A stretch of 64,000 bases of DNA from Chloroflexota bacterium (GCA_026707225.1 JAPOXG010000022.1:1-64000); one strand, 5' to 3'. Counted from the stretch's first letter, positions 1,813-58,995 are shown. Translations and numbers: made by a program. Notes: generated by a model not told the origin, from the letters alone.

Positions 1813-2784
1813 CTAGGGATTCGGCCGGCGGGCGATCCATTGGCTCGCCGCTGCGGATTCTGCGCATTTGCGGGCGTGGAGGGCGGCGCCGACCAAACAG
1901 ACATCGTCGCTGAATCGCGCCGGGCGCAGCAGATTGTCCGGGAGGAAGCCCTCAAACAGAATATGCTGCTCGATCGCCTTTCGCGCCGGATCCAGAATTA
2001 AATCACCCAGATTCATCACGCTGCCGCCCAAGACGACCGCCGCCGGGTTGAAGAGATGCAGCAAGTTGACCAGCCCCAATCCCAACCAGGTTCCGGCTTG
2101 CCGCAGGCAATCGAGCGCGAATTCGTCGCCGGCCAAAGCCGCTTCCCCAACCGCCTGTCCATCGATCGCTTCGCAATCCCGCAAAACCGAAGGTGTAGCT
2201 CCCGCTCTCAGTTGATGCCGCGCCAACTCGCCCAGCGCCGTGCCTGACGCCAGCTCCTCCCAGCGTCGTATGCCGCCGTCGGGCAACGTAAAACGCATGT
2301 GACCGGGTTCAATGGCATGCCCGCTGAAACCATTGAACAGCTCTCCGTTGATGATCGCGCCGCCGCCGATGCCGGTACTGATGGTCAAATAAATCATGGG
2401 GTCGGCGCCCTGCCCCGCGCCCAGGTGATATTCCGCCAGCGCACCGAGATTGGCGTCGTTTTCGACAAAGGCGGGCAGGCCGGCAAACGCCCGACGAAAG
2501 GTCTCGACAATCGGCGCCTTCGACCAGCCGGGCAAGGTCTCGGCTTTGATGATGACACCAGCCGCGGTGTCCAGCGGACCCGGCGCCGCGATGCCAATGG
2601 AAGCCAATTCGTCTTCAGCGTGAATCAGTGATTTGCCCAGGTTGATCAAGCGCTCCAGGACAATATCCGGTCCGTCGCTGACGCGGCTGCGCGTTTCGGC
2701 GCGCCGGATCAAGCGCATGTCGCCGTCAAAAAGGGCGGCGCGACTGCGGGTTCCGCCGAAGTCAATTGCCAAACAGGCGCTCAT
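1813..2784 (-). CDS. ROK family sugar kinase/regulator-like protein
   Basis: MSACLAIDFGGTRSRAALFDG...GIAAPGPLDT...VENDANLGALAEYHLGAGQG...STGIGGGAIINGELFNG; typical ROK phosphate and ATP motifs. No N-terminal HTH. Confidence 0.85.
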   Translation of the reverse strand: MSACLAIDFGGTRSRAALFDGDMRLIRRAETRSRVSDGPDIVLERLINLGKSLIHAEDELASIGIAAPGPLDTAAGVIIKAETLPGWSKAPIVETFRRAFAGLPAFVENDANLGALAEYHLGAGQGADPMIYLTISTGIGGGAIINGELFNGFSGHAIEPGHMRFTLPDGGIRRWEELASGTALGELARHQLRAGATPSVLRDCEAIDGQAVGEAALAGDEFALDCLRQAGTWLGLGLVNLLHLFNPAAVVLGGSVMNLGDLILDPARKAIEQHILFEGFLPDNLLRPARFSDDVCLVGAALHARKCAESAAASQWIARRPNP

Positions 2785-3734
2785 AGTCGATTGATGTATT
2801 CATACAGGCGGCGGTCGGGTGGCGGCTTGTGTTCGGCGGGCGGGCTTCCCTGACGCAGCATCGCCGCGCCAGCGCGCCACAGGACCGTGCCACTGACATT
2901 GCCATCCTGGAAAGCGCGCCAGGCGACGCGGCTCATATCGCGGGCGACGCGGCGATCCCAGTGGGAAACATCCGCGCCGCGCTGCGCATGACCCAAGGCG
3001 GTATAACGAAGGCGAATGCCCGTGCGCCGCGGAATCTCTTCCACCAACCGGTCGACATCCGGATAGGCTTCCGAGGCGACGACTAGCGCACTGCCTTCGC
3101 GAGCGACGATCTGTTTCAAGCGCTCGGATAGCCAGTCAAGTTCGAGCGGATATTCCGGCAGCAAAGCCAAGTCGGCGCCGCTGGCGTAGGCGATCGCCAG
3201 CGCCAGATGACCGGTCGGCGCGCCCAAGGTCTCCAGCAGGAAGATTCGCCCGGGCAGGGCATGGGCAGTCGCGCGAATAGCGGCGACGGCAGGTATGGCG
3301 TAGTTACAGGCGGAATCATGCCCAAGCGTGTAATCGGCGCCGGGCACATCATTGTCAATAGTCGTCGGCAAGACGATGCAAGATACGCCCCATTCCGCTA
3401 GCAGGGGCGCAACATGGCGAATCGTGCCGTCGCCGCCGAAGAGCAGCAGATTGTCGATGCCGCGCCGGCGCATGACGTCGCCCAATTTTTCGCGGGCATT
3501 CGGATCCTGCAGAGCCGGTCTTCGGCTCGACGGCAGGATGGATCCCCCACGCCCAGCCAGCAAAGAAACGAGGGACCGATCAAGCTCCACCAGTTGATCG
3601 TCGAGCAAGCCCGCCATGCCGTTCCGCGCGCCCAGAGCCTGATCGCCATTTTGCCTAGCCAGGCGCGTAAACGTCTCGATGGCTGTGTTGATTCCCGGCG
3701 CGTCGCCCCCGCTCACTACGATGCATGTCTTCAT
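2781..3734 (-). CDS. 6-phosphofructokinase-like kinase (PfkA superfamily)
   Basis: VVSGGDAPGINTAIE, LLFGGDGTIRH, PTTIDNDVPGADYTLG, ALGHAQRGA. 4-bp overlap with the downstream ROK gene. Confidence 0.85.
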   Translation of the reverse strand: MKTCIVVSGGDAPGINTAIETFTRLARQNGDQALGARNGMAGLLDDQLVELDRSLVSLLAGRGGSILPSSRRPALQDPNAREKLGDVMRRRGIDNLLLFGGDGTIRHVAPLLAEWGVSCIVLPTTIDNDVPGADYTLGHDSACNYAIPAVAAIRATAHALPGRIFLLETLGAPTGHLALAIAYASGADLALLPEYPLELDWLSERLKQIVAREGSALVVASEAYPDVDRLVEEIPRRTGIRLRYTALGHAQRGADVSHWDRRVARDMSRVAWRAFQDGNVSGTVLWRAGAAMLRQGSPPAEHKPPPDRRLYEYINRL

Positions 3735-3955
3735 CTATCGTTAAGCCCCTCCTTGTCGGGCGCCACCCTACCGATGATACCGCATACGTCCGCTTCATCC
3801 GAAAGCCATTCGATCATTCACCGGCGCTTGGCCGGTCTCGTCAGCGCGGCTGTTTGCAAATCGTTAGTGAATGAGATAACCTTTTGAGACATTTCCGGTT
3901 TCCGCGCGCTGGAAGCGGGCGATGTCAGTATACGTATTGTAGAAGGAGACCTACG

Positions 3956-5854
3956 GTGAAAAGAATTCTTGTTCTCACGACACTTGTGCTCTTCGCGCTC
4001 AGCCTCGTTCCCGGGGCGATCGCGCAAGACGATGGCTATACCATCGCCTTCGTTCCGGGTGTCAATCCGGATCCGTTTTACATCACCATGTCAACCGGTG
4101 TGAATCAGGCTGCTGTAGACCTGGGGCTGACGGTCATTCAGCAGGACCCCGAGCGATTTGATGTCACCGTCTCTGCGCCGATCATCGAAGCGCTGATCGC
4201 CCGCGGCGATATCGACGCTCTGGTCACGGCGCCGAACGACAAAGAACAGTCGATACCGGTGCTGCAGGCGGCGCATGACGCCGGCATTGTTGTGCTGACG
4301 GTCGATACTTTCATCGGCGATGGCAACTATGCCGATGGCGAAGTCACCTTCCCGATCTCCTACATCGGCTCGGACAATACGCAGGGCGGCTACATCGCCT
4401 GCTCGGCGCTGGCGGACAAGCTGGGCGCAGGCGCCAAGATTTACGTCACCAACACGCGCCCGGGCATCAGCACGACCGACCAGCGTGAAGAAGGCTGTCT
4501 AGCCGCGGCTGAGGCTAGCGGTTTGGTCGTAGCTCGCGTCGATTACAACGAGAACAGCGCCGATACCGCGCAAGCGCAGACGGCGGCTGTCTTGCAGGCG
4601 AATCCAGATATTGTCGGCATGTTCGCCACCAATACCTTCGGCGCGCTCGGCGCTGGCACGGCGATTCAGAACGCAGGTTTGCAAGGCGCGGTGGAAGTGG
4701 CGCTCTTTGACGCCAGCGAAGAAAACATCGGCTTCCTGAACGATGGCATCGTCTCGCTCGTGATCGCGCAGAAGCCGGCCGACATGGGTTATCTCGGCGT
4801 CGCCTTGGCCACCGCCTATCTCGATGGCGTAGGCAGCATCCCGGCGCGCATTGGCACCGGTTACGCCGTCATCACCGCCGACAACGTAGACGATCCGGAT
4901 GTGGCTCGCTTCATCTACACCAGCAACACCAGCGATCCGGCGCCGGCGCTGGACGAGAGCTATAACCTGGCTTTCGTGCCTGGCGTGAATCCCGATCCCT
5001 TCTACATCACCATGTCGCGCGGGGTCTATGGCGCGGCCGGTCGCTTGGGCATCAACGTCATCCAGCAGGATCCGGAGCGCTTTGACGTCACCGTTTCCGC
5101 GCCGATAATCGAAGCGCTGATCGCGCGCGGCGACATCAGCTCGCTGGTGACGGCGCCGAATGACAAGGAACAGTCGATCCCGGTGCTGCAAGACGCGCAT
5201 GACGCCGGCATCGCGGTCCTGACGGTCGATACCTTCATCGGCGATGGCAACTACGCCGATGGCGAGGTCACCTTCCCCTTGAGCTATATCGGCTCGGACA
5301 ATGTAGAAGGCGGCCGCATCGCTTGTTCGGCTTTGGCGGACAAGCTGGGCGAAGGCGCGAAGATCTACGTCACCAACACGCGCCCGGGCATCAGCACGAC
5401 AGATCAGCGCGAGGAAGGCTGCCTGGCGGCGGCTGAGGCTGGCGGACTGATCGTCGCCCGCGTCGATTACAACGAGAACAGCGCTGATATGGCGCAGCAG
5501 CAGACGGCGGCTGTCTTGCAAGCGAATCCCGATATCGTTGGCATGTTCGCCACCAATACTTTCGGCGCTTTGGGCGCGGGCGCGGCCATCCAGAATGCCG
5601 GCTTGCAAGGCGCGGTGGAAGTGGCTCTGTTTGACGCCAGCGAAGAGAACATCGGCTACTTGCGCGACGGCATCGTTTCGCTGGTGATCGCGCAGAAGCC
5701 GGCCGACATGGGCTACCTCGGCGTGATCGCGCAGGCGGCCAACTTGCGCGGCGTGACCTCAATGCCGGCGCGCGTCGGCACTGGTTACGCGGTCATTACC
5801 ATCGACAACGTAGACGATCCGGATGTCGCGCGTTTCATCTACACGGCGGGCTAG
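3956..5854 (+). CDS. CUT2-type sugar-binding protein consisting of two tandem periplasmic-binding domains
   Basis: GTG start after AGAAGGAGAC; signal peptide VKRILVLTTLVLFALSLVPGAIAQDDG. Two copies of Y-(T/N)-(I/L)-AFVPGVNPDPFYITMS...RFIYT with 308-codon periodicity. Confidence 0.9.
   Translation: MKRILVLTTLVLFALSLVPGAIAQDDGYTIAFVPGVNPDPFYITMSTGVNQAAVDLGLTVIQQDPERFDVTVSAPIIEALIARGDIDALVTAPNDKEQSIPVLQAAHDAGIVVLTVDTFIGDGNYADGEVTFPISYIGSDNTQGGYIACSALADKLGAGAKIYVTNTRPGISTTDQREEGCLAAAEASGLVVARVDYNENSADTAQAQTAAVLQANPDIVGMFATNTFGALGAGTAIQNAGLQGAVEVALFDASEENIGFLNDGIVSLVIAQKPADMGYLGVALATAYLDGVGSIPARIGTGYAVITADNVDDPDVARFIYTSNTSDPAPALDESYNLAFVPGVNPDPFYITMSRGVYGAAGRLGINVIQQDPERFDVTVSAPIIEALIARGDISSLVTAPNDKEQSIPVLQDAHDAGIAVLTVDTFIGDGNYADGEVTFPLSYIGSDNVEGGRIACSALADKLGEGAKIYVTNTRPGISTTDQREEGCLAAAEAGGLIVARVDYNENSADMAQQQTAAVLQANPDIVGMFATNTFGALGAGAAIQNAGLQGAVEVALFDASEENIGYLRDGIVSLVIAQKPADMGYLGVIAQAANLRGVTSMPARVGTGYAVITIDNVDDPDVARFIYTAG
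4037..4927 (+). repeat. Intragenic SBP domain repeat, copy 1
   Basis: YTIAFVPGVNPDPFYITMSTGV...VARFIYTS; near-identical to 4961-5851. Confidence 0.85.
4961..5851 (+). repeat. Intragenic SBP domain repeat, copy 2
   Basis: YNLAFVPGVNPDPFYITMSRGV...VARFIYTAG; offset 924 bp from copy 1. Confidence 0.85.
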
Positions 5855-5874
5855 CTTGCTAGCTCTACGCAAAT

Positions 5875-5948
5875 TGTAGGGGCGGCCCAGTGGGTCGCCC
5901 GCCTACCTCAACAAGCAAATTGTAGGGGCGACTCTGTGAGTCGCCCGC
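5875..5948. repeat. Two REP-like palindromic repeats
   Basis: TGTAGGGGCGGCCCAGTGGGTCGCCCGCC (5875-5903) and TGTAGGGGCGACTCTGTGAGTCGCCCGC (5921-5948), just after the tandem SBP stop. Confidence 0.85.
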
Positions 5949-6041
5949 TTTTGTCTAGCGGCGCGCCCGATGACAACAGACCCGATTCTCTGGCCATGAT
6001 TCATCATAACCTCTCTGCTGCTGTGCTTTTCCCCTGTGCAG

Positions 6042-7241
6042 ATGACTAAATTGCAACCATCGCTCGTCAAGCGACAGAACCTGCTGGTCGGCGCTTTGTG
6101 CACGACCTATGGTCTGCTGTATTTGGGTCGGGTGAATATCAGCGTCGTCTTGCCTCTGCTCGCCATCGAGCTTGATGTCAGTCGCGCTCAAGTCGGCGTA
6201 TTGGGGACGGTGTTCTTCTGGACCTACGCCATTGGCAACTTCGTCAATGGTGAGCTCGGCAGCCACGTCAGACCTTATCGCGTAATCGGCGTCGGTTTGT
6301 TGGTCACGGCGATTGTGAATCTCGTTTTCGGTTTCCAGACATCGCTGCTGTTAATGCTGGTGCTTTGGGGCATCAACGGCTTGGCGCAATCGGGGGGATG
6401 GCCGCCGATCGTCCGCATCCTGGCCGAGCGCCTCGATCCGAGTCGAATAAAACAGGTGTCGACCGTCATCCCATTCAGTTATGTAATCGGCACAGTGGTC
6501 ACATGGACCTTGATCGGGGCCATATCCGCCGGCGAGAACTGGCGCCTGGCATTTTGGCTTCCTGGATTGATCTTGCTGTTGACGGCGGCGCTCTGGTGGA
6601 AGGGAGGCATTGATGCGCCGACGACAGACTCGAAGGGCGTGCGCCTTTCGACGATAATGGCCGAAGCTCGCGGCGTCGCCTTTGCCATGGTGGTAGCGGC
6701 ATTAGCAGGCTTCGTACGCAACGGGACGCTCATCTGGCTGCCGACCTATATTCTCGATAGCGAATTGATCGCGGAGAATTTGGTGGGCGCCGTCGCGGCG
6801 ATCACGCAATTGGTCGCGATTCCGGGCATCTTGCTGGCGCGCCACAGCGTTGTGCGCAGCAACCGAGTGTTGTTCACGGCGGCGCTGTTGCTAGGGGCGA
6901 CCGGGTTTGCTTTTCTCCTTTTGACGTTGGCAGTCGGCGTATCGTCGATAATCGTCTTATGCCTGGCGATGATGTTATTGGGCGGGGCATTCGGCCTGGT
7001 GACGACTTCCATGCCCTTGATCTTGGCGCCGCCGGGTCGCGCTTCGTCGATCGCTGGCACGCTGAATATGATGGCGACCCTGGCCGGCGGCTTGGCCGGT
7101 TTCAGCATCGGCGCTTTGGTGGAGCGAAGCGGTTGGACGGGCGTCTTTGGCGTGTGGGGCATCATGCTTTTGCTGGCTGCTGCCGTGGCCTGGCGCCGCA
7201 AACACGTAGAAGAGGTCCTCGCCGGTCTGGGTCAGGCTTGA
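6042..7241 (+). CDS. MFS transporter (OPA/GlpT-like)
   Basis: About 12 hydrophobic segments; LLYLGRVNISVVLPLLAIELDVSRAQVGVLGTVFFWTYAIGNFVNGELG. Confidence 0.85.
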   Translation: MTKLQPSLVKRQNLLVGALCTTYGLLYLGRVNISVVLPLLAIELDVSRAQVGVLGTVFFWTYAIGNFVNGELGSHVRPYRVIGVGLLVTAIVNLVFGFQTSLLLMLVLWGINGLAQSGGWPPIVRILAERLDPSRIKQVSTVIPFSYVIGTVVTWTLIGAISAGENWRLAFWLPGLILLLTAALWWKGGIDAPTTDSKGVRLSTIMAEARGVAFAMVVAALAGFVRNGTLIWLPTYILDSELIAENLVGAVAAITQLVAIPGILLARHSVVRSNRVLFTAALLLGATGFAFLLLTLAVGVSSIIVLCLAMMLLGGAFGLVTTSMPLILAPPGRASSIAGTLNMMATLAGGLAGFSIGALVERSGWTGVFGVWGIMLLLAAAVAWRRKHVEEVLAGLGQA

Positions 7242-7257
7242 AGAACAGAGGCCTCAT

Positions 7258-8442
7258 TTGCAGACAACGCTGAGCAAGCAGCAGAATATGATGGTGGGGA
7301 GCCTGCTGGTCACCTACGCGTTGTATTACCTGGGGCGCGTGAATATCAGCGTGGTCTTGCCAGCCTTGGCGCTGGACCAGGGCGTCAGCCGCGCTGAAGT
7401 CGGCGCTCTGGGCACCGTCTTCTTCTGGGTATACGGCATCTTTCACTTCATAAGCGGCGAGATCGGCAGCCATGTCAGCCCTTTTCGCCTGGTCAGCCTC
7501 GGATTGCTCGCCAGCGCCATCGTGAATCTGGTCTTCGCCTTTCAGTCGTCGTTGATTGTCATGCTCATTTTGTGGGGTCTAAACGGGGTCGCCCAGTCGG
7601 GCGGCTGGTCGCCCATGTTCCGCATATTGGCGGAGCGGCTGGACCGCAGCCATATCAAACGCGTATCGACCATCATGCCCTTCAGTTATGTCATGGGCAC
7701 GGCAATCACCTGGGTGCTGATTGGGGCTGCCGCGACGGGCGAGAATTGGCGGATCGCGTTTTGGCTTCCGGGAATCATCTTGCTTCTGGTGCTGGTTTTT
7801 TGGCGGGCGGCCGGCATTGACGCGCCAAAATCCAGGTCCGACGGCATTCGCCTATCCACCATGATGGCCGAGGCTCGCGGCATCGCCTTCGTCATGTTGG
7901 CGGCGGCGCTGAGCGGTTATGTGTTCAATGGAACCATCATTTGGCTGCCGACATATATTCTTGACACCGGGCTTATTGCTGAGGGCTTGGTTGGAGCGGT
8001 CGCCGCCTTGACGCAAGCAGTCGCAATTCTCGGCCTCCTTACGGCGCGCGCGCTTGTCACGCGCAGCAATCAAGTCTTCGCGACTGCCGTGCGGCTGTTT
8101 TCGGCCGCGGGAGTAGCCTTTCTGCTGCTAAGCATAACCGCTGGCCTCTTTGCCATCGTCGTGGTCGCCTTCGCCTTGCTGGCTTTGAACGGCGCCTTTG
8201 GCTTGACCGTCAGCGCAATGCCCCTGCTGCTGGCGCCGGCCGGGCGCGCCTCATCAACCACGGGCGCAGTCAACATGATGTCAACGTTCTTCGGCGGCAT
8301 GGCTGGTTTCAGCATCGGCGGCTTGGTGGAGCTCAGCGGCTGGAGCGCGGTATTCAGCTTATGGGGCGCGCTGCTGTTGCTGGCCTGCCTGTTGATCTGG
8401 CGCAATCGGCACATTGAAGCAGCCAAAGACAGCGCGCTATGA
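7258..8442 (+). CDS. MFS transporter, tandem paralog of upstream gene
   Basis: LYYLGRVNISVVLPALALDQGVSRAEVGALGTVFFWVYGIFHFISGEIGSHVSPFRLV; TTG start, 16 bp after the previous stop. Confidence 0.85.
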   Translation: MQTTLSKQQNMMVGSLLVTYALYYLGRVNISVVLPALALDQGVSRAEVGALGTVFFWVYGIFHFISGEIGSHVSPFRLVSLGLLASAIVNLVFAFQSSLIVMLILWGLNGVAQSGGWSPMFRILAERLDRSHIKRVSTIMPFSYVMGTAITWVLIGAAATGENWRIAFWLPGIILLLVLVFWRAAGIDAPKSRSDGIRLSTMMAEARGIAFVMLAAALSGYVFNGTIIWLPTYILDTGLIAEGLVGAVAALTQAVAILGLLTARALVTRSNQVFATAVRLFSAAGVAFLLLSITAGLFAIVVVAFALLALNGAFGLTVSAMPLLLAPAGRASSTTGAVNMMSTFFGGMAGFSIGGLVELSGWSAVFSLWGALLLLACLLIWRNRHIEAAKDSAL

Positions 8443-8529
8443 GCCATCCGCCGCGAGCCCAAGAGATAGTATAATGACGCTTCAGAAACAGAACATTGCA
8501 GGGGCAAGCCACTGGGTCGCCCGAATTCC

Positions 8530-9732
8530 ATGAGCGACATTGCGCCGCTAAGCGGCATCCAAGTGGTGGACCAGACGCAAGCGCTGGCCGGTCCATACAC
8601 GACGATGATTCTGGGCGATCTCGGCGCCGATGTCATCAAGATCGAGAAGCCCGGCATCGGCGACAATTCGCGTCAGTGGGCGCCGCCATATATCGGCGAT
8701 CAAAGCTGCTATTACCTGGCGGTCAACCGCAACAAGCGCGGCATCGCCCTGGACTTGAGCGCCGCCGGCGGACGTGAATTCATCCACAAGCTCACGAGAG
8801 ACGCCGACGTTTTTCTGACCAATCTCAGAACCACAGCCGCGCTCCAGCGCCACGGCATCGATTACGAAACGCTTAGCGCCATCAATCCGCGGGTGGTCTA
8901 TGCCTCAATCAGCGGCTATGGGCGGACTGGCCCGCGGGCGGGACAGCCGGGTTATGATCTGGTGTCGCAGGCGGAATCGGGCACAGTGGCTTTGACGGGC
9001 GAGGTTGATGGCGCGCCGATGCGCTTCCCCACGCCGATCGCCGATATGACCTGCGGTTTGTTCACCGTGATTGGGATCCTGGCCGCACTGCGATCGCGCG
9101 ACCAAAATGGCGCTGGTCAGTTCTTAGACATGTCCTTGCAGGAAGGGCAGATGACCTGGCTGGCCAATCTGGCCGGCGAATATTTCGCCGAGGAGAGGGA
9201 TCCGCCGCGGCGGGGCAATCGCCACCCGCAAGTGGTGCCATACGAAGCTGTCCAAGCCAGCGATGGCGACTGGTTCATGCTGGGCGTCGCCTCGGACAAC
9301 GTATGGGGCGCCTTCTGCCGGCAGGTCAATCGGGAAAACCTGGCCTCAGACCCGCGTTTCATCACCAATGCCGACCGTATCGCCAACTACGACGCGCTGC
9401 TCCCCATCGTTCGGGACATCATCCGCGGCAAGACCTGCGATGAGTGGCTGACGGACCTGCGCGCGGCCGGCGTGCCCTGCGGGCGCATCAATACGGTGGC
9501 GGAAGCGCTGGGCGACCCCCACTTGATCGAGCGCGGATTCATCGTCGAGTTGGAACACCCGGCTCTCGGTCTGATCAAGTCGCTGGCGACGCCGATTCAC
9601 CTGACAGATACGCCGCTGGTTTATCGCCGGCATCCGCCGCGCCTGGGCGAGCATAGCGATGAAGTGGCGGCTGAATTAGGCTACCGACGGGGCGATATCG
9701 CGCGGCTGCGGGCGGAGGGCATACTCGCATGA
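8530..9732 (+). CDS. CaiB/BaiF family CoA-transferase
   Basis: LSGIQVVDQTQALAGPYTTMILGDLGADVIKIEKPGIGDNSRQW...SAAGGREFIHKL...GYDLVSQAESG...LDMSLQEG. Confidence 0.92.
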   Translation: MSDIAPLSGIQVVDQTQALAGPYTTMILGDLGADVIKIEKPGIGDNSRQWAPPYIGDQSCYYLAVNRNKRGIALDLSAAGGREFIHKLTRDADVFLTNLRTTAALQRHGIDYETLSAINPRVVYASISGYGRTGPRAGQPGYDLVSQAESGTVALTGEVDGAPMRFPTPIADMTCGLFTVIGILAALRSRDQNGAGQFLDMSLQEGQMTWLANLAGEYFAEERDPPRRGNRHPQVVPYEAVQASDGDWFMLGVASDNVWGAFCRQVNRENLASDPRFITNADRIANYDALLPIVRDIIRGKTCDEWLTDLRAAGVPCGRINTVAEALGDPHLIERGFIVELEHPALGLIKSLATPIHLTDTPLVYRRHPPRLGEHSDEVAAELGYRRGDIARLRAEGILA

Positions 9733-9873
9733 GTTGGCATGATTGGTCGTGCCCGCCGGGCGCATGACCTGCAAATTGAGAATGATTAGGTATAATAGGC
9801 GAATTGCAACCGACCGGGGGGTTGCTTCAATGTTACCATCGTCCGCAGGCACTAAGGACAGAAGACTCTCCCT

Positions 9874-10995
9874 ATGGCATTAGGCACGACGTCGGACAAG
9901 GCAAAGCGCCAACCTCTGGTCAATGCGCGCTTTGTCGAATTCCTGACCCAAAGCTGGTCTTATCTTTTCTTGCTTGGCTTGGTTGTCTTCTTCTCCCTGA
10001 CGGGCACCGGCTTCTTTTCCGTTCGCAACTTCTCCTCGATTTTGACCACCAGCACCTTGATCATGTTGATGTCGATCGGGCAGACCTACGTCGTCATCAC
10101 GGCCGGCATTGATTTGTCCATCGGCTGGACAGTAGGGCTATCATCGGTTACCACCGCCCGCGTCATGCGGGACCTGGCGGCCGGCGGCGCCGATGTCGAG
10201 TACGCTATGCTCGCTGGCGTCTTTGCCGGCTTATTGGTCGCGCTGGTCCCGGGCTTGGTCAACGGATTGCTGGTCGCGCGAGTGAAGGTGCCGCCATTCA
10301 TCGCCACGCTCGGCATGTTTGGCATCGTGCGCGGCGCCGCCTTCTTGCTGACTGACGGACAGCAAGTCGTGCGCGGTTTATCGGCCGAATTGCGTGAGGC
10401 GCTTCGCGGCATCGGCAACGGCAGCCTGCTCTACCACATCCCCGATCACGGACTGGTCTGGTTCCGGCAGCCGCCCGATCTCGAGCCGACGCAGATTCGA
10501 CAGGTTTCGCAACTATTGCCATATCCTGTGTTGATCACCGCGCTGGTCGTCGTCGTCTTCGCTTTCATCCTGGCGCGCAGCAAATTTGGCCGCCACACCT
10601 ATGTCATCGGCGGCAGCGAAGAAGCGGCGCGGCGCTCCGGCATCAATGTCGACCGCCACCTGATCATCATTTACGTGATCTGCGGCTTCACCGCGGGCAT
10701 CGCCGGCGTGTTGCATCTCTTCCGCTTTACGGCTGGCGCGCCCCAAGCCGGCGAAGCGGCGTTGCTGTCATCGGTCGCGGCGGTCGTCATCGGCGGCACC
10801 AATCTCTTCGGCGGCGAAGGGGACATCATGGGCGCGGTCGTCGGCTCGCTGATCATCGCCGTCTTGCAGACCGGGCTGGTCATTCTCAATATCGACTCGA
10901 TATGGCAGTTCATCGTGGTCGGCGTCGTCATCATCATCGCCGTGCTGGTCAATCAGCTGCAGACGGCGCTGGAAAGGCTGCAATCGAATGTCTGA
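9874..10995 (+). CDS. CUT2-type (RbsC-like) sugar ABC transporter permease
   Basis: TYVVITAGIDLSIGWTVGLSSV...GLLVARVKVPPFIATLGMFGIVRG...VIGGTNLFGGEGDIMGAVVGSLII. Confidence 0.9.
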   Translation: MALGTTSDKAKRQPLVNARFVEFLTQSWSYLFLLGLVVFFSLTGTGFFSVRNFSSILTTSTLIMLMSIGQTYVVITAGIDLSIGWTVGLSSVTTARVMRDLAAGGADVEYAMLAGVFAGLLVALVPGLVNGLLVARVKVPPFIATLGMFGIVRGAAFLLTDGQQVVRGLSAELREALRGIGNGSLLYHIPDHGLVWFRQPPDLEPTQIRQVSQLLPYPVLITALVVVVFAFILARSKFGRHTYVIGGSEEAARRSGINVDRHLIIIYVICGFTAGIAGVLHLFRFTAGAPQAGEAALLSSVAAVVIGGTNLFGGEGDIMGAVVGSLIIAVLQTGLVILNIDSIWQFIVVGVVIIIAVLVNQLQTALERLQSNV

Positions 10996-11758
10996 GGCAA
11001 TTCTAACCGCGACCGGCGTCAGCAAGCATTTCGGCGGCTTGACCGCGGTGGACAACGTCGATTTCGCGGTCCATCCCGGTGAGGTCGTCGCTCTGCTCGG
11101 AGATAACGGCGCCGGCAAATCGACGCTCATCAAGTGCATCTCCGGCGTCTATCGCCCGGAGAGCGGCACGGTCATCTTCAATGGCGCAGACATCACACAT
11201 CAGCCGCCGGCCGATATTCGCAGCCGCGGCATTGAGACGATCTACCAGGACCTGGCTTTGGCCGAGAACCTCGATGTCGGCGCAAACGTCTTCCTGGGCA
11301 AGGAAGTGACCCGCCGGCTCTTCGGTCTGCTCCCAGTCACCGATGACAGTTATATGCGCCAGGAAGCTTCGGGCGTGCTGGATGAGCTGGATATCCACAT
11401 TCCCTCGCTCACGCAGAAGCTGGTCAATCTCTCTGGCGGGCAGCGCCAGGCGGTCGCCATTGCCCGCGCCATGTATTGGAATGCCCAACTGGTGATCATG
11501 GATGAGCCAACCGCCGCGCTAGGGGTGCCGGAGCAGCGCAAGGTACTGGCCTTGATACGCTCTCTGCGCGAGGGGAATATTCCGGTCATCCTCATCAGCC
11601 ATACGATGCACGATGTCATGGCGGTGGCTGACCGCATGGTGATCATGCGCCGCGGGCGGGTCGTCGCCAATATCCTGCGGTCCGACGCCACCGAAGAGAT
11701 CATCGTTCGACATATCGTCGGCAGCGCTGAAAACGGCGAAAACGCGGTGATGATTTGA
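10988..11758 (+). CDS. CUT2-type sugar ABC transporter ATPase, single NBD (FrcA-like)
   Basis: LLGDNGAGKSTLIKCISGVYRPESG...LVNLSGGQRQAVAIARAMYW...VIMDEPTAALGVPE; 256 aa. Overlaps the permease by 8 bp. Confidence 0.92.
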   Translation: MSEAILTATGVSKHFGGLTAVDNVDFAVHPGEVVALLGDNGAGKSTLIKCISGVYRPESGTVIFNGADITHQPPADIRSRGIETIYQDLALAENLDVGANVFLGKEVTRRLFGLLPVTDDSYMRQEASGVLDELDIHIPSLTQKLVNLSGGQRQAVAIARAMYWNAQLVIMDEPTAALGVPEQRKVLALIRSLREGNIPVILISHTMHDVMAVADRMVIMRRGRVVANILRSDATEEIIVRHIVGSAENGENAVMI

Positions 11759-11894: not shown

Positions 11895-12863
11895 ATGCCA
11901 ATACAACTGACGCCCGGCCGGTACCGCGGTCTGAAATCAACGAGCCTGGCCGAGGGCGATGTCTTCGGCATCATCGCCTTTGATCAGCGCGGCAGCTACC
12001 GCAGCATGATGCCCGCCAATGCCAGCTATGAAACGCTGGCGCAGGTCAAAGGCGAGATCATCAGCGCCCTCTCGAAAGCAGCCAGCGCCATCCTCACCGA
12101 CCCGACTTATGGCCTCAACGCCGCCATGCGGATGAGCCCGAAAGCGGGCTTGCTGCTGGCGCTTGAGAAGAGCGGCTACAGTGGCGATTCGAGCTATCGC
12201 AAGACCGAACTCATCTCCAGTTGGACGCCGGAGAAAATCCGCAAAGCGGGCGCCAGCGCGGTCAAGCTCATGGTCTATTACCATCCGGGGAGCGGCGCGC
12301 TCGCTGACGAGCTGGAGCAACTGATTCGCCGCGTGGCAGCCGACTGCCATGAATGGGATCTGCCGCTTTTCCTCGAGCCCATGTCCTATAGCCTGGACCC
12401 CGCCATTTCGAAAGACAGCGAGGAATTCGCCGCCGCTCGCCCGGAGGTCGTCATCGAGACCGCTCGCCGATTGGCAGGCAGTGGCGCCGACGTGCTGAAA
12501 ATGGAATTCCCGCATGATATTAAGTTCAACCAAGATCGGGAAGCTTGGCGACAGGCTTGCGCGGAGCTCAGCGAGGCTTCAACAGTGCCTTGGGTGCTGT
12601 TAAGCGCGGGCGTCGATTTCGATCAATTCAAACCGCAGGCGCAGGTCGCCTGCGAGAGCGGCGCCAGCGGCTTCCTCGCCGGTCGCGCCATTTGGAAAGA
12701 AGCGGCGGCCATGTCTAAGACGGATCGGGCCGCCTTCCTGGAGACCGTAGCGCAGGATCGTCTGCGCCGGCTATTGGATATCGCCGCCGCCTCAGCGCGG
12801 CCCTGGACCGATTTCTACAGCGCGCCGCAGTCCTCCGAGACCTGGTACGAAACGTACGCTTAA
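11895..12863 (+). CDS. LacD-like tagatose-1,6-bisphosphate/class I aldolase
   Basis: MPIQLTPGRYRGLKSTSLAEGDVFGIIAFDQRGSYRSM...AILTDPTYGL...AGASAVKLMVYYHP...PLFLEPMSYSL...GADVLKMEFPHD. Confidence 0.8.
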   Translation: MPIQLTPGRYRGLKSTSLAEGDVFGIIAFDQRGSYRSMMPANASYETLAQVKGEIISALSKAASAILTDPTYGLNAAMRMSPKAGLLLALEKSGYSGDSSYRKTELISSWTPEKIRKAGASAVKLMVYYHPGSGALADELEQLIRRVAADCHEWDLPLFLEPMSYSLDPAISKDSEEFAAARPEVVIETARRLAGSGADVLKMEFPHDIKFNQDREAWRQACAELSEASTVPWVLLSAGVDFDQFKPQAQVACESGASGFLAGRAIWKEAAAMSKTDRAAFLETVAQDRLRRLLDIAAASARPWTDFYSAPQSSETWYETYA

Positions 12864-53980: not shown

Positions 53981-54763
53981 ATGGACTCGACTCAAGGCCA
54001 TCCTGAGCGCGTTGCTATCGACGAGTCAGCGCCGGCGCCGCTGCTCATCGCCCGAAACATCACCAAGTCATTCGGCCATGTCCAGGCGCTGAGCAATGCT
54101 TATATTGACGTGCGGGCGGGCGAAATCGTGGCGCTGGTGGGTGACAATGGCGCTGGCAAATCAACACTGATCAAAGTCCTTTCCGGCGCGCATCGCCCCG
54201 ACGCCGGCGAGATTATCGTCCGCGGCCAATCGGCCGCCATCAACAGCCCGAACGACTCCTTCGATCTCGGCATCGCCACGGTTTATCAGGACCTGGCGCT
54301 GCTGCCATCGCGCGATGTGGTGGCGAACCTCTACGTGGGAAGGGAGCTCACCAACAACGGCTTGCTGGACCGGCGCAAGATGACCGAAGAAGCCAATCGC
54401 GTCGTGCGGCAACTGCGCACCAACCTGCCCTCGGTGCATACGCCCGTGCGCTTTCTGTCCGGTGGCCAGCGGCAGGCGGTCGCCATCGCCCGCGTCGTGC
54501 ATTTCGGCGCCGAGATTCTGCTGCTCGACGAGCCGACGGCGGCGCTCGGCGTCAAAGAATCGCACGAAATGTTGACCTTGATCGAGAACCTCAAAGAGCA
54601 GAACAAAGCGATCATCGTCGTCAGCCATAATCTGGCGCACGTCTTCCGCATCTGCGATCGCATCACTGTCCTGCGCCATGGCGAGACGGTAGGCACGCTG
54701 ATCAAAGAAGACACCGATTCCACCGAAGTCGTCCAAATGATCACCGGCGCTGATCTCTTGTGA
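53981..54763 (+). CDS. CUT2-type sugar ABC transporter ATPase, single NBD (FrcA-like)
   Basis: LVGDNGAGKSTLIKVLSGAHRPDAGE...VRFLSGGQRQAVAIARVVHFGAEILLLDEPTAALGVKESHE; 260 aa. Confidence 0.93.
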   Translation: MDSTQGHPERVAIDESAPAPLLIARNITKSFGHVQALSNAYIDVRAGEIVALVGDNGAGKSTLIKVLSGAHRPDAGEIIVRGQSAAINSPNDSFDLGIATVYQDLALLPSRDVVANLYVGRELTNNGLLDRRKMTEEANRVVRQLRTNLPSVHTPVRFLSGGQRQAVAIARVVHFGAEILLLDEPTAALGVKESHEMLTLIENLKEQNKAIIVVSHNLAHVFRICDRITVLRHGETVGTLIKEDTDSTEVVQMITGADLL

Positions 54764-54810
54764 ACTCGAGGAATCATCAGGCCTGGCGAATAGGGTAACG
54801 GAGCGCATCA

Positions 54811-55884
54811 GTGACAGCCATTATTGACAAAGTCAAGCCATCTGACGATAGGCCGGAAGGAGCGTCGCGGCTGCGGCGCTTGCTCGGGCAGCGTGAAGCG
54901 CAGCTGCTGCTGGTGCTGGTCGTATTCACCTTGCTCGTGCGGGCTGGCGGCGCGAAAGGCTTCCTCGGTCCCACGCATTTTCCCATCTTCCTGTCCCAAG
55001 TCGCGCCGGACATGCTGGTGGTGATCCCGATGGCGATGCTGCTGATCGGCGGCATGTTCGATCTGTCGGTGACCGGCGTCGCCAACCTCAGCGTGGTCTT
55101 GGTCGGCTGGACCTTCTCTCGCTTGCTGGGCACGATGGACGACACGCTGCTGATCATATTGGTGGTCGCGATTGGCTTAATGGCCGGTTTGATCGTCGGC
55201 GCGATCAATGGCTTGGCGGTCACCCGTCTGCGCATGAATCCGCTGATGACGACGCTGGCGACCTGGTGGATGGCTCAGGGCGCGGCGACCGGCGTGGCTG
55301 GCGGTGAATCGCGCCACAACTTCGTCGGCTCCTTCCGCGATATCGCCCGATTTCAGCCCCTGCGAGATTTGGGCGAGACCTTCCCCTTTCTGCAGGAGAT
55401 GCGCATCAGCACTTTGCCAATGCCGGTATTCTACGCGGCGATTGTGATTTTCCTCGGCTGGCTCATTTTGACGCGGACGCGCTTTGGCTGGCATATTTTC
55501 GCCACCGGCAGCGACCGGCAAGGCGCGGCGCTGAACGGCGTCAACGTCAACCGCGTGACCCTCATCGGCTTCATCGCCACCGGCATGGCCGCCGCCATGT
55601 GCGGCATCGTCTGGGCCAGCCGGCTCACATCAGCGCCGCCCAATACCCTGGGTGGCCTCGAGCTGCGGGTGATCGCCGCCGCGGTGATCGGAGGCGCCGC
55701 GCTCACCGGCGGGGAGGGCAGCGTGCTCGGCGCCGTCCTGGGGCTGTTCTTCATGCACATGATCCGCAGCGCCACCATTCAATTGGGCTTGCCCGTCTAT
55801 TGGGAATTCTTCGTATTGGGCGCCGTTCTGTTCACCGCCGTCGCCTTTGACGCCTGGACCAAACGGCGAGCCGACACCCAATGA
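54811..55884 (+). CDS. CUT2-type (RbsC-like) sugar ABC transporter permease
   Basis: VVIPMAMLLIGGMFDLSVTGVANLSVVLVG...GLAVTRLRMNPLMTTLATWWMAQGAATG...VIGGAALTGGEGSVLGAVLGLFFM. GTG start. Confidence 0.9.
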   Translation: MTAIIDKVKPSDDRPEGASRLRRLLGQREAQLLLVLVVFTLLVRAGGAKGFLGPTHFPIFLSQVAPDMLVVIPMAMLLIGGMFDLSVTGVANLSVVLVGWTFSRLLGTMDDTLLIILVVAIGLMAGLIVGAINGLAVTRLRMNPLMTTLATWWMAQGAATGVAGGESRHNFVGSFRDIARFQPLRDLGETFPFLQEMRISTLPMPVFYAAIVIFLGWLILTRTRFGWHIFATGSDRQGAALNGVNVNRVTLIGFIATGMAAAMCGIVWASRLTSAPPNTLGGLELRVIAAAVIGGAALTGGEGSVLGAVLGLFFMHMIRSATIQLGLPVYWEFFVLGAVLFTAVAFDAWTKRRADTQ

Positions 55885-56106
55885 CGCTGACGCTTGTGGC
55901 GCCTTTATCCGAACAGCCCTGGTCAGGCCAGGGGAAGCGGCGCTCCCGCGCGCAGCGCGCGATGCGTCTTTGAAGGGGGCAGATGCACAGGCGCGTCTGC
56001 ATCGCCAAAGTGGTGAATTGCGCGGCCATCGACAATGACAGCCGTGTGGATTTCCCCACGAAGCGCAATGAGACTCGATAGAACAACACATCTTTTGGAG
56101 AGCAAA

Positions 56107-57975
56107 ATGAAAAGGTACATGGTACTTCTGCTGGTATTTTCGCTGCTGATTGGCGTCGCCGCGCCTCTCGTCGCCCAAGACGAAGACGTCTACTACATGA
56201 TCGGCGGCAACCTGGGGCATCCTTGGTGGAAGCAGCACTTTGAAGGCATTGAAGTAGCCGCCGAATGGCTCGGCATCAATGTCGAAATCGTGGGTCCGCC
56301 GCCCACCGATGGCATCGCCCTCGAGCAAATCAAGCTGCTTGAGGAGATCGTCGCCAAGCCCAATACCGCTGGCATTATGATGATCGGCTTTGATGTCACG
56401 CTCATCCCCGAGGTATCGAAACAGGCGATGGCGGCCGGGATCCCCTTCATCCAGTTTAATGGCGATCTCATCGACAAGAGCGCCCGCCATGCTTTCGTCG
56501 GCACGGGCGACTACGCATTCGGTGAATCGGCGGCGCAGTTGGTGCTGGATCGCTATCCCGATGGCGCCAAGATTGGCGTGGTCGCTTTCATCAGCGCCCA
56601 GCAGCATCGCGATCGCCTGCAGGGCTTCCAGGAAACGCTGGAAGCTTCAGGGCGCGCCTATGAATTCCTCGAGCCGGTTGATGACCGCGCTTCAATGGAC
56701 GGCGCTTACAACGGCGCGCTGAACCTGATCGAAGCCAATCCCGATATGGACATCATCTATTCGGGTGACGCCTTTGCCGAAGGCGTCGCCAACGCCGTGA
56801 ACGACATGGGCTTGATCGACAGCATCGACGTGGTCGGCGGCGACCGCGCCGACTCGCTGCTGCAGGACATCAAGGACGGCAACGTCATGGGCACCATCGC
56901 CCAAGACACTTTCGCCGAGGGCTTCTTCGGCGTGCTTTACATGTATGTCGCGCGTCAGGGTCTTGTCGCGCAAGAAGGCGGGCGCCTCGCCTTGCCCGAC
57001 ACATCGATCACCCAGTCCTTCACCATCACAGCCGAAACCGTTGACTTCTTCCTCGGCGTCGAGCCGGACAAGCCAACGCTGCCCGCCGGCGCCGACGGCA
57101 CTTACTACATGATCGGCGGCAACCTCGGGCATCCCTGGTGGAAGCAGCATTTCGACGGTATCGAAGCGGCCGCCGATTGGCTGGGCATCAATGTGGAAAT
57201 TGTCGGTCCGCCGCCCACAGATGGCATCGCCCTGGAGCAGATCAAGCTGCTGGAAGAGATCGTTGCCAAGGAAGACACCAGGGGCATCATGATGATCGGA
57301 TTTGATGTCACGCTGATACCAGAAGTATCCAGGCAAGCGATGGCGGCCGGCATCCCCTTCATCCAGTTCAACGGCGATCTCATCGACCGCAGCGCTCGCC
57401 ATGCCTTCGTCGGCACCGGCGACTTCGCTTACGGTGAATCGGCCGCCCAGCTCGTGCTCGATCGCTATCCGGACGGCGCCAAGATCGGCGTGGTCGCCTT
57501 CATCAGCGCCCAACAGCATCGCGACCGCTTGCATGGCTTCCAAACGACGCTGGAGGCATCGGGCCGCGCTTACGAATTCCTCGAACCGGTGGATGACCGC
57601 GCCTCGATGGACGGCGCTTACAACGGCGCGCTCAACCTGATCGAAGCCAATCCCGACATGGACATCATCTACTCCGGTGACGCATTCGCCGAGGGCGTCG
57701 CCAACGCGGTCAAGGACATGGGGCTGGTCGACAGCATTGACGTGGTCGGCGGCGACCGCGCCGATTCCCTGCTGCAAGCGATCAAAGACGGCGATGTCAT
57801 GGGCACGATCGCCCAAGACACCTTCGCCGAGGGCTTCTTCGGCGTCGTCTATATGTATGTCGCCGCTGAAGGCATTGTGGCGCGTGAAGGCGGGCGCATC
57901 GCCCTGCCCAATACCGTGATTACGAAGTCCTTCACCGTCACCGCCGAGACCGTCGACTTCTTCCTGGAGGGCTAG
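56107..57975 (+). CDS. CUT2-type sugar-binding protein consisting of two tandem periplasmic-binding domains (different family from 3956-5854)
   Basis: MKRYMVLLLVFSLLIGVAAPLVAQDEDV; two copies of YYMIGGNLGHPWWKQHF(E/D)GIE(V/A)AA(E/D)WLGINVEIVGPPPTDGIALEQIKLLEEIVAK with 304-codon periodicity. Confidence 0.92.
   Translation: MKRYMVLLLVFSLLIGVAAPLVAQDEDVYYMIGGNLGHPWWKQHFEGIEVAAEWLGINVEIVGPPPTDGIALEQIKLLEEIVAKPNTAGIMMIGFDVTLIPEVSKQAMAAGIPFIQFNGDLIDKSARHAFVGTGDYAFGESAAQLVLDRYPDGAKIGVVAFISAQQHRDRLQGFQETLEASGRAYEFLEPVDDRASMDGAYNGALNLIEANPDMDIIYSGDAFAEGVANAVNDMGLIDSIDVVGGDRADSLLQDIKDGNVMGTIAQDTFAEGFFGVLYMYVARQGLVAQEGGRLALPDTSITQSFTITAETVDFFLGVEPDKPTLPAGADGTYYMIGGNLGHPWWKQHFDGIEAAADWLGINVEIVGPPPTDGIALEQIKLLEEIVAKEDTRGIMMIGFDVTLIPEVSRQAMAAGIPFIQFNGDLIDRSARHAFVGTGDFAYGESAAQLVLDRYPDGAKIGVVAFISAQQHRDRLHGFQTTLEASGRAYEFLEPVDDRASMDGAYNGALNLIEANPDMDIIYSGDAFAEGVANAVKDMGLVDSIDVVGGDRADSLLQAIKDGDVMGTIAQDTFAEGFFGVVYMYVAAEGIVAREGGRIALPNTVITKSFTVTAETVDFFLEG
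56191..57063 (+). repeat. Intragenic SBP domain repeat, copy 1
   Basis: YYMIGGNLGHPWWKQHFEGIEVAAEWLG...FTITAETVDFFLGVE. Confidence 0.85.
57103..57972 (+). repeat. Intragenic SBP domain repeat, copy 2
   Basis: YYMIGGNLGHPWWKQHFDGIEAAADWLG...FTVTAETVDFFLEG; offset 912 bp. Confidence 0.85.
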
Positions 57976-58191: not shown

Positions 58192-58995
58192 ATGAGACTG
58201 AAAGATAAAGTCGCCCTGGTCACTGGCGGCGGACGCGGCATCGGACGGCATATCGCCCTGCGCCTCGCTGATGAAGGCGCTGATGTGCTGGTCAACTACG
58301 CCAGCAGCGAAGCCGGCGCGCAGGACATCGCCGCGCAGATTCGCGGGAAGGGGCGGCGCGCGATTGCCGTGAAAGCGAATATCGCCCAGCGCGACGAGGT
58401 CGATGCCATGTTCGAGCGCCTCGCCGCTGACTTCGGTCGCATTGACATTCTGGTCAATAACTCGGCGATCGATCCGGTGATCCCCTTCCTGGACATGACC
58501 GATGAACAGTGGGACCGGGTCATCGATATCAACCTCAAGGGCACGTATATGTGTTCCCAGGCGGCTGCCCGGCTCATGGTCAAACAGGGGAACGGCGGCA
58601 ACATCACCATCATCGGTTCCATGCACAGCATGGCGACCTTCCCCGGCATGTTGGCTTATGCCAGCACCAAAGGCGGTCTCAACGCGATGACGCGGGCCAT
58701 GGCGCTGGATCTCTCGCCGCACCGCATCCGCGTCAACTGCGTGATCCCCGGCTCCATTCACGTAGAGAAAGCCTACGAAGTCATCCCGAACTATGACCCG
58801 CACATGATCGATGATCAAATCGCATTGGGGCGCATCGGCTACGGACCGGATATCGCCGCCGCCGTCGTCTTCATGGCTTCGGGGGATGCCGAATACATCA
58901 CCGGCACGACGCTGAATGTCGATGGAGGGGTCATGGCGCGCATGGCCCTTTGGTTCGACGACTTGGAGACAGTTGAGCGCAAATACGACCCATAG
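58192..58995 (+). CDS. SDR-family oxidoreductase (FabG-like)
   Basis: DKVALVTGGGRGIGRHIALRLADEGADVLVNYASSEAGAQD...ILVNNSAIDPVIPFLDMTDEQWDRVIDINLKGTYMCSQAAARLM...YASTKGGLNAMTRAMALDLSPHRIRVNCVIPG...GTTLNVDGG. Confidence 0.94.
   Translation: MRLKDKVALVTGGGRGIGRHIALRLADEGADVLVNYASSEAGAQDIAAQIRGKGRRAIAVKANIAQRDEVDAMFERLAADFGRIDILVNNSAIDPVIPFLDMTDEQWDRVIDINLKGTYMCSQAAARLMVKQGNGGNITIIGSMHSMATFPGMLAYASTKGGLNAMTRAMALDLSPHRIRVNCVIPGSIHVEKAYEVIPNYDPHMIDDQIALGRIGYGPDIAAAVVFMASGDAEYITGTTLNVDGGVMARMALWFDDLETVERKYDP

Follow-up and report, generated by a model that had tools for sequence, protein, structure and literature searches.

The window, meaning the whole stretch of 64,000 nucleotides analyzed here, contains two loci that are probably ordinary CUT2 monosaccharide importers in which the gene for the substrate-binding protein (SBP) has been duplicated in frame, with the units homogenized and used for tethered capture, independently of the type of ATPase. 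We call the loci systems A and B, and the groups to which their SBPs belong families A and B.

Two importers with doubled binding proteins

System A (53981-57975) lies on the plus strand. Its CUT2-type ATPase (53981-54763, 260 aa) contains one ABC_tran domain by Pfam and therefore a single nucleotide-binding domain (NBD), and its best NCBIfam matches span only the first half of the YtfR, XylG, AraG and RbsA models. The CUT2 permease (54811-55884, 357 aa, GTG start; Pfam BPD_transp_2) follows, and then the SBP (56107-57975), in which Pfam and self-comparison reveal a signal peptide and two near-identical Peripla_BP_4 units. The SBP frame opens at 56035, but the likely start is 56107, where the signal peptide MKRYMVLLLV...VAQ begins. 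Self-comparison of the units places the repeat cores at 56191-57054 and 57103-57966, in a register of +912 nt. An SDR oxidoreductase gene comes after the SBP, at 58192. The first-pass annotation had described this system as an ATPase with one NBD beside an SBP with two full units, and the ORFs, coordinates and Pfam assignments agree.

It had also described the same pairing in system B, where Pfam likewise finds a tandem SBP, a permease and a one-NBD ATPase, all on the plus strand. The SBP (3956-5854; the ORF opens at 3884) has two Peripla_BP_4 units in a register of +924 nt. The permease (9874-10995) is assigned to CUT2 by Pfam (BPD_transp_2) and NCBIfam, and the ATPase (10988-11758, 256 aa) has one ABC_tran domain, with NCBIfam matches limited to the first half of RbsA-like models. 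In both ATPases the Walker A (GDNGAGKST), signature (LSGGQRQA) and Walker B motifs, read from the sequence, are intact. Between SBP B and its permease (5854-9874) lie two MFS transporter genes and a CaiB-like CoA transferase gene. Some close relatives share this separation by inserted genes with the window's genome; in many other relatives the SBP, permease and ATPase are contiguous, and the SBP-to-ATPase distance is about 1.1-1.5 kb versus 5-7 kb.

The nearest NCBIfam models are AlsB for the system A SBP and RbsB for the system B SBP, both matched far under the equivalog cut-off. On the flanks of system B (1813-3734 and 11895-12863) are genes resembling ROK kinase, phosphofructokinase and tagatose-bisphosphate aldolase, the last being a tagatose-1,6-diphosphate-aldolase-like gene at 11895, after the ATPase. 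These flanking genes suggest a hexose or ketohexose as a candidate substrate of system B.

Within each chain the units are closely alike. Those of SBP A share 91% of amino acids and 85% of DNA positions, with 84 synonymous versus 26 nonsynonymous codon differences; those of SBP B share 87% and 81%, with 90 versus 38. Peripla_BP_4 is matched in two stretches of each SBP, with Pfam scores of 263 and 308 bits. The two SBPs had been called non-homologous-looking. Both fall in one Pfam family, with about 24% identity over both units, so they are homologous. They are also the only two tandem frames among the nine Peripla_BP_4 frames of this genome. AlphaFold predicts two complete PBP folds joined by a short linker for family B (mean pLDDT 79, pTM 0.81). 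The best solved match to family B is the single-unit 5DKV of Agrobacterium vitis, 44% identical, and no solved tandem of this SBP family was found among the solved structures searched.

In a survey of 1842 ORFs, each 300 aa or longer, from 2.29 Mb of sequence, a sample biased to CUT2 loci and one in which overlapping loci were counted repeatedly, whole-domain repeats of about 300 aa were almost confined to CUT2 SBPs and their antisense shadows. A separate frame in the window's own genome (L092, 10772-11998, minus strand; G000:C78; 409 aa, both strands open) contains an internal repeat of 139 residues, with 95% identity across 100 residues.

Distribution, unit number and NBD number

Tandem SBPs recur across several families and many independent assemblies, much more than chance could account for, which upholds the earlier suggestion that the arrangement is more than a one-off duplication. 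The genus has family A tandems in 14 further genomes, at 92-98% identity; in two of these a contig end truncates the tandem. Most genomes of the genus also have a family B tandem, and other genera have such tandems too, with identity falling to 65%. The named loci come from Chloroflexota MAGs that bear the title 'Chloroflexi' or 'Anaerolineae bacterium'. A profile search of 400 genomes across the phylum returned matches to both units only in the window's own genome (G000) and two others of the same class, and single-unit relatives in about 20 genomes outside the class; among 199 genomes of the class, further tandems were found in several families. In the genomes sampled, all from Chloroflexota and searched with a family B profile that could miss very different tandems, tandem CUT2 SBPs are thus found only in one class.

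Unit number is not fixed at two. Single-unit relatives of the tandems are found at L105, L106, L129, L178 and L179. At L192 (5446-8163, minus strand), away from the contig end and adjoining a two-NBD ATPase, a 906-aa SBP with a lipobox-like N end (TQCGS) has three complete Peripla_BP_4-type units that are 65-71% mutually identical. A family A SBP in genome G020 (L055, 8335-10533, plus strand) has at least 2.3 units and runs off the contig end, with the starts of its units 2 and 3 identical over 291 of 291 bases; its third unit could be real or an assembly loop. Some of the single-unit or 99-100% identical cases (L129, L057, L065, L189) may likewise be short-read collapses or ambiguous repeats.

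The question of artifact also arises for the window itself, since the source genomes are MAGs in which contig ends interrupt some tandems, and L055 stops inside a repeat whose last bases copy unit 2. For systems A and B, an assembly or local artifact is already refuted and can be given practically no weight. Their units are only 81-85% identical in DNA, the 84 and 90 synonymous differences being too many for an assembly duplication, and full-length tandems lie inside long contigs, with orthologs in many independent assemblies.

The doubled SBP beside a single-NBD ATPase had been put forward as a class of its own, a reversed CUT2 architecture in which the double SBP is functionally coupled to the single NBD. 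Both systems in the window fit such a coupling, as do the tandems at L057-L059 and every tandem locus of families A and B whose ATPase can be seen. When SBP units and NBDs were counted per CUT2 locus in a sample at the level of the order, however, all four combinations appeared among the relatives. Tandem SBPs stand with one NBD in families A and B, at L057 and at L058/L059, but with two NBDs in seven groups (L065, L067/L078, L079/L080, L082, L096/L097/L100, L098/L099/L102 and L101). Single-unit SBPs most often stand beside two NBDs, and a single NBD is frequent among them too. We placed 48 SBPs whose NBD number was known on a tree, on which the number of units changes about 13 times and the number of NBDs 5 times; the first count is approximate, the tree having weak and long branches, and it supports repeated gain or loss of the tandem state. 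Of 6 independent pairs of close relatives with unlike unit numbers, 5.5 keep the same NBD number, and in the raw table the two numbers show no significant association (Fisher p = 0.24). The single/tandem pairs L067/L106, L101/L105 and L079/L129 have two NBDs throughout. In family B, tandems and the single-unit orthologs L178 and L179 all have one, so the single NBD is independent of the tandem SBP. Coupling as a rule is already refuted by these counts, and a functional coupling seems very unlikely.

The first-pass annotation had named two observations that would speak against its reading. Single-unit SBPs at related loci do occur in family B (L178, L179) and in three other families; in family A they do not. 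An unlinked RbsA-type double ATPase as the true partner is unlikely, for family A loci keep the order ATPase-permease-SBP wherever the contig spans all three genes. The ATPase of the family A loci has one NBD wherever it is visible.

Homogenization of the units

In every tandem of the order-level sample, self-alignment gives units that are 78-100% identical, whereas the families differ from one another to 25-55%. The same holds between orthologs from different bacterial families: L064 and window B have within-protein identities of 90 and 87% versus 65-69% between species, and L058 and L059 have 90 and 88% versus 54-56%. In the informative columns of L064 and window B, 62 are concerted, with both units sharing a lineage-specific residue, and 2 are orthologous.

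These sites are unevenly placed along the unit. Between L072 and window B, the first 40 hold 9 older unit-specific columns, the middle holds 1 and the last 60 hold 6, and lineage-shared columns number 0, 9 and 1 in the same zones; between L067 and L078 the corresponding counts for start, middle and end are 4, 1 and 7 unit-specific and 1, 23 and 2 lineage-shared. The unit ends that face the inter-unit linker stay unit-specific while the cores are homogenized.

Codon usage at synonymous positions follows the same direction. Identical synonymous codons within proteins exceed within-gene shuffles by z values of 5-19. For L072 and window B, the share of same codons is 61-65% within a protein versus 37-39% between species, and in the cross-genus pairs compared, the within-protein values lie above the between-species values. 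Genome-to-genome codon bias could add to this cross-genus gap, hence the use of the within-gene shuffle as well. A codon excess alone is no proof of conversion, since some excess remains after any duplication, however old. Taken together, the site pattern and the codon excess indicate DNA-level homogenization, or concerted evolution, of the unit cores.

Within the genus of the window the picture is different. There, each unit groups with its counterparts at the same position, unit 1 with unit 1 and unit 2 with unit 2 (L069, L055 and partly L051 being exceptions), and codon identity between species is about as high as within proteins; both features argue that exchange is rare within the genus. 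One of the exceptions, L069 in genome G027, has a unit 2 with a unit-1-type C end, as conversion would leave.

The main alternative is that each lineage duplicated its SBP separately and recently, with purifying selection and no ongoing gene conversion keeping the units alike. The single-unit sister proteins in several families and the many state changes on the tree are what such a history would produce, and repeated separate duplication could explain part of the pattern between families. As an account of the whole, it seems unlikely. Orthologous tandems from different bacterial families have a common junction position and a similar linker length, and unit-specific end residues are common to genera while the cores are lineage-specific in both units. 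The homogenization of synonymous sites and the unit-1-type C end in unit 2 of L069 also argue against it. In the single-unit relatives, the N end resembles unit 1 and the C end resembles unit 2. This is compatible with recombination having removed a unit, with a duplication whose junction ends adapted afterwards, or sometimes with assembly collapse.

A proposed tethered sugar catcher and its known relatives

How might the doubled protein work? In the reading that we favor, one secreted chain carries two copies of one sugar-binding domain, whose cores are kept alike by gene conversion or unequal crossing-over. Each unit would capture the same sugar on its own, and one loaded unit at a time would dock on the homodimeric permease. 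The tether would keep the second loaded unit close, so that both the capacity for capture and the local concentration would rise. In this reading the ATPase with its single NBD is a separate, FrcA-like trait, presumably acting as a homodimer. That both units should bind the same sugar is suggested by their pocket-motif segments, aligned with solved relatives, which are identical or nearly so between the units of SBP A and of SBP B. Bivalent capture of one sugar is a possible role of the doubling. According to a published report, sponge-associated Anaerolineae and Caldilineae have an abundance of carbohydrate ABC transporters (PMC6306507), which makes strong selection on sugar capture plausible, with no implication that the window genome comes from a sponge.

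A contrary proposal is that the units bind different ligands, or that one of them is a non-binding module for docking or anchoring. The conservation of the unit-specific ends could be taken to favor this, but given the closely matching pocket-motif segments in both SBPs and the mostly conservative nature of the residue differences between units, we hold it to be highly improbable.

We also considered soluble versus lipoprotein anchoring as the cause of the tandems, and set it aside as a general rule. Lipobox-like cysteines occur in the tandems L190 and L191 of the class, and the tandem L188, elsewhere in the class, also has a Cys near its N end. The tandems of the order-level sample carry SPase I-type signals; of their three lipobox regex matches none is convincing, that of L066 lying upstream of its likely start. 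Several single-unit CUT2 SBPs of the order have a lipobox (L103, L104, L107, L109, L125, L126).

More tentatively, and with somewhat less than even confidence, we suggest a generalization to the class: CUT2 SBP genes may be small expandable arrays, in which recombination alters the number of units (1, 2 or 3), the same recombination keeps the ligand specificity of the units identical, and selection favors multivalent catchers that feed one translocator. A free ABC binding protein that recurs in the form of near-identical units in tandem, with related one-, two- and three-unit versions, provides a natural series for testing directly whether capture and transport change with the count of binding domains in a chain. 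So far this has been addressed mainly in permease-fused domains of differing specificity such as those of GlnPQ. Through their recurrence and homogenization, these genes would also be a bacterial case of concerted evolution acting inside a single gene. In the literature searched, which was mainly open-access, we found no account of tandem CUT2 SBPs, and an earlier description may exist elsewhere. As far as these searches show, it is new that free SBPs occur as tandems built of near-identical units, that they recur in one class and that their units are homogenized; the parts are ordinary CUT2 components.

Compared with RbsABC, the systems in the window are alike in SBP fold and family, permease family, ATPase family and gene clustering, with a Peripla_BP_4-type SBP and a BPD_transp_2 permease. 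They differ in having a two-unit SBP and a one-NBD ATPase, where RbsABC has a one-unit SBP and a two-NBD ATPase; family B nevertheless includes single-unit orthologs. Single-NBD members of CUT2 are known (FrcA), and we therefore keep the systems within the wider CUT2 group. With FrcBCA-type importers they have in common a one-NBD ATPase, one permease gene and an SBP, a likeness of architecture. Known FrcBCA-type members have a single-unit SBP, in contrast to the two-unit SBPs here.

The nearest experimental precedent is GlnPQ, in which tandem PBP-fold domains bind independently (PMC8025302). GlnPQ and related transporters resemble our systems in having two PBP-fold domains with a short linker. 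Their domains, however, form one chain with the permease and have different specificities, whereas those here are near-identical units of another SBP family in separate exported proteins, encoded by their own ORFs with their own signal peptides. OpuA has two substrate-binding domains per transporter (PMC11065425). As in the systems here, more than one such domain is available to each translocator. The two domains of OpuA stem from two copies of a fusion between binding domain and permease, rather than from intragenic duplication of a free SBP.
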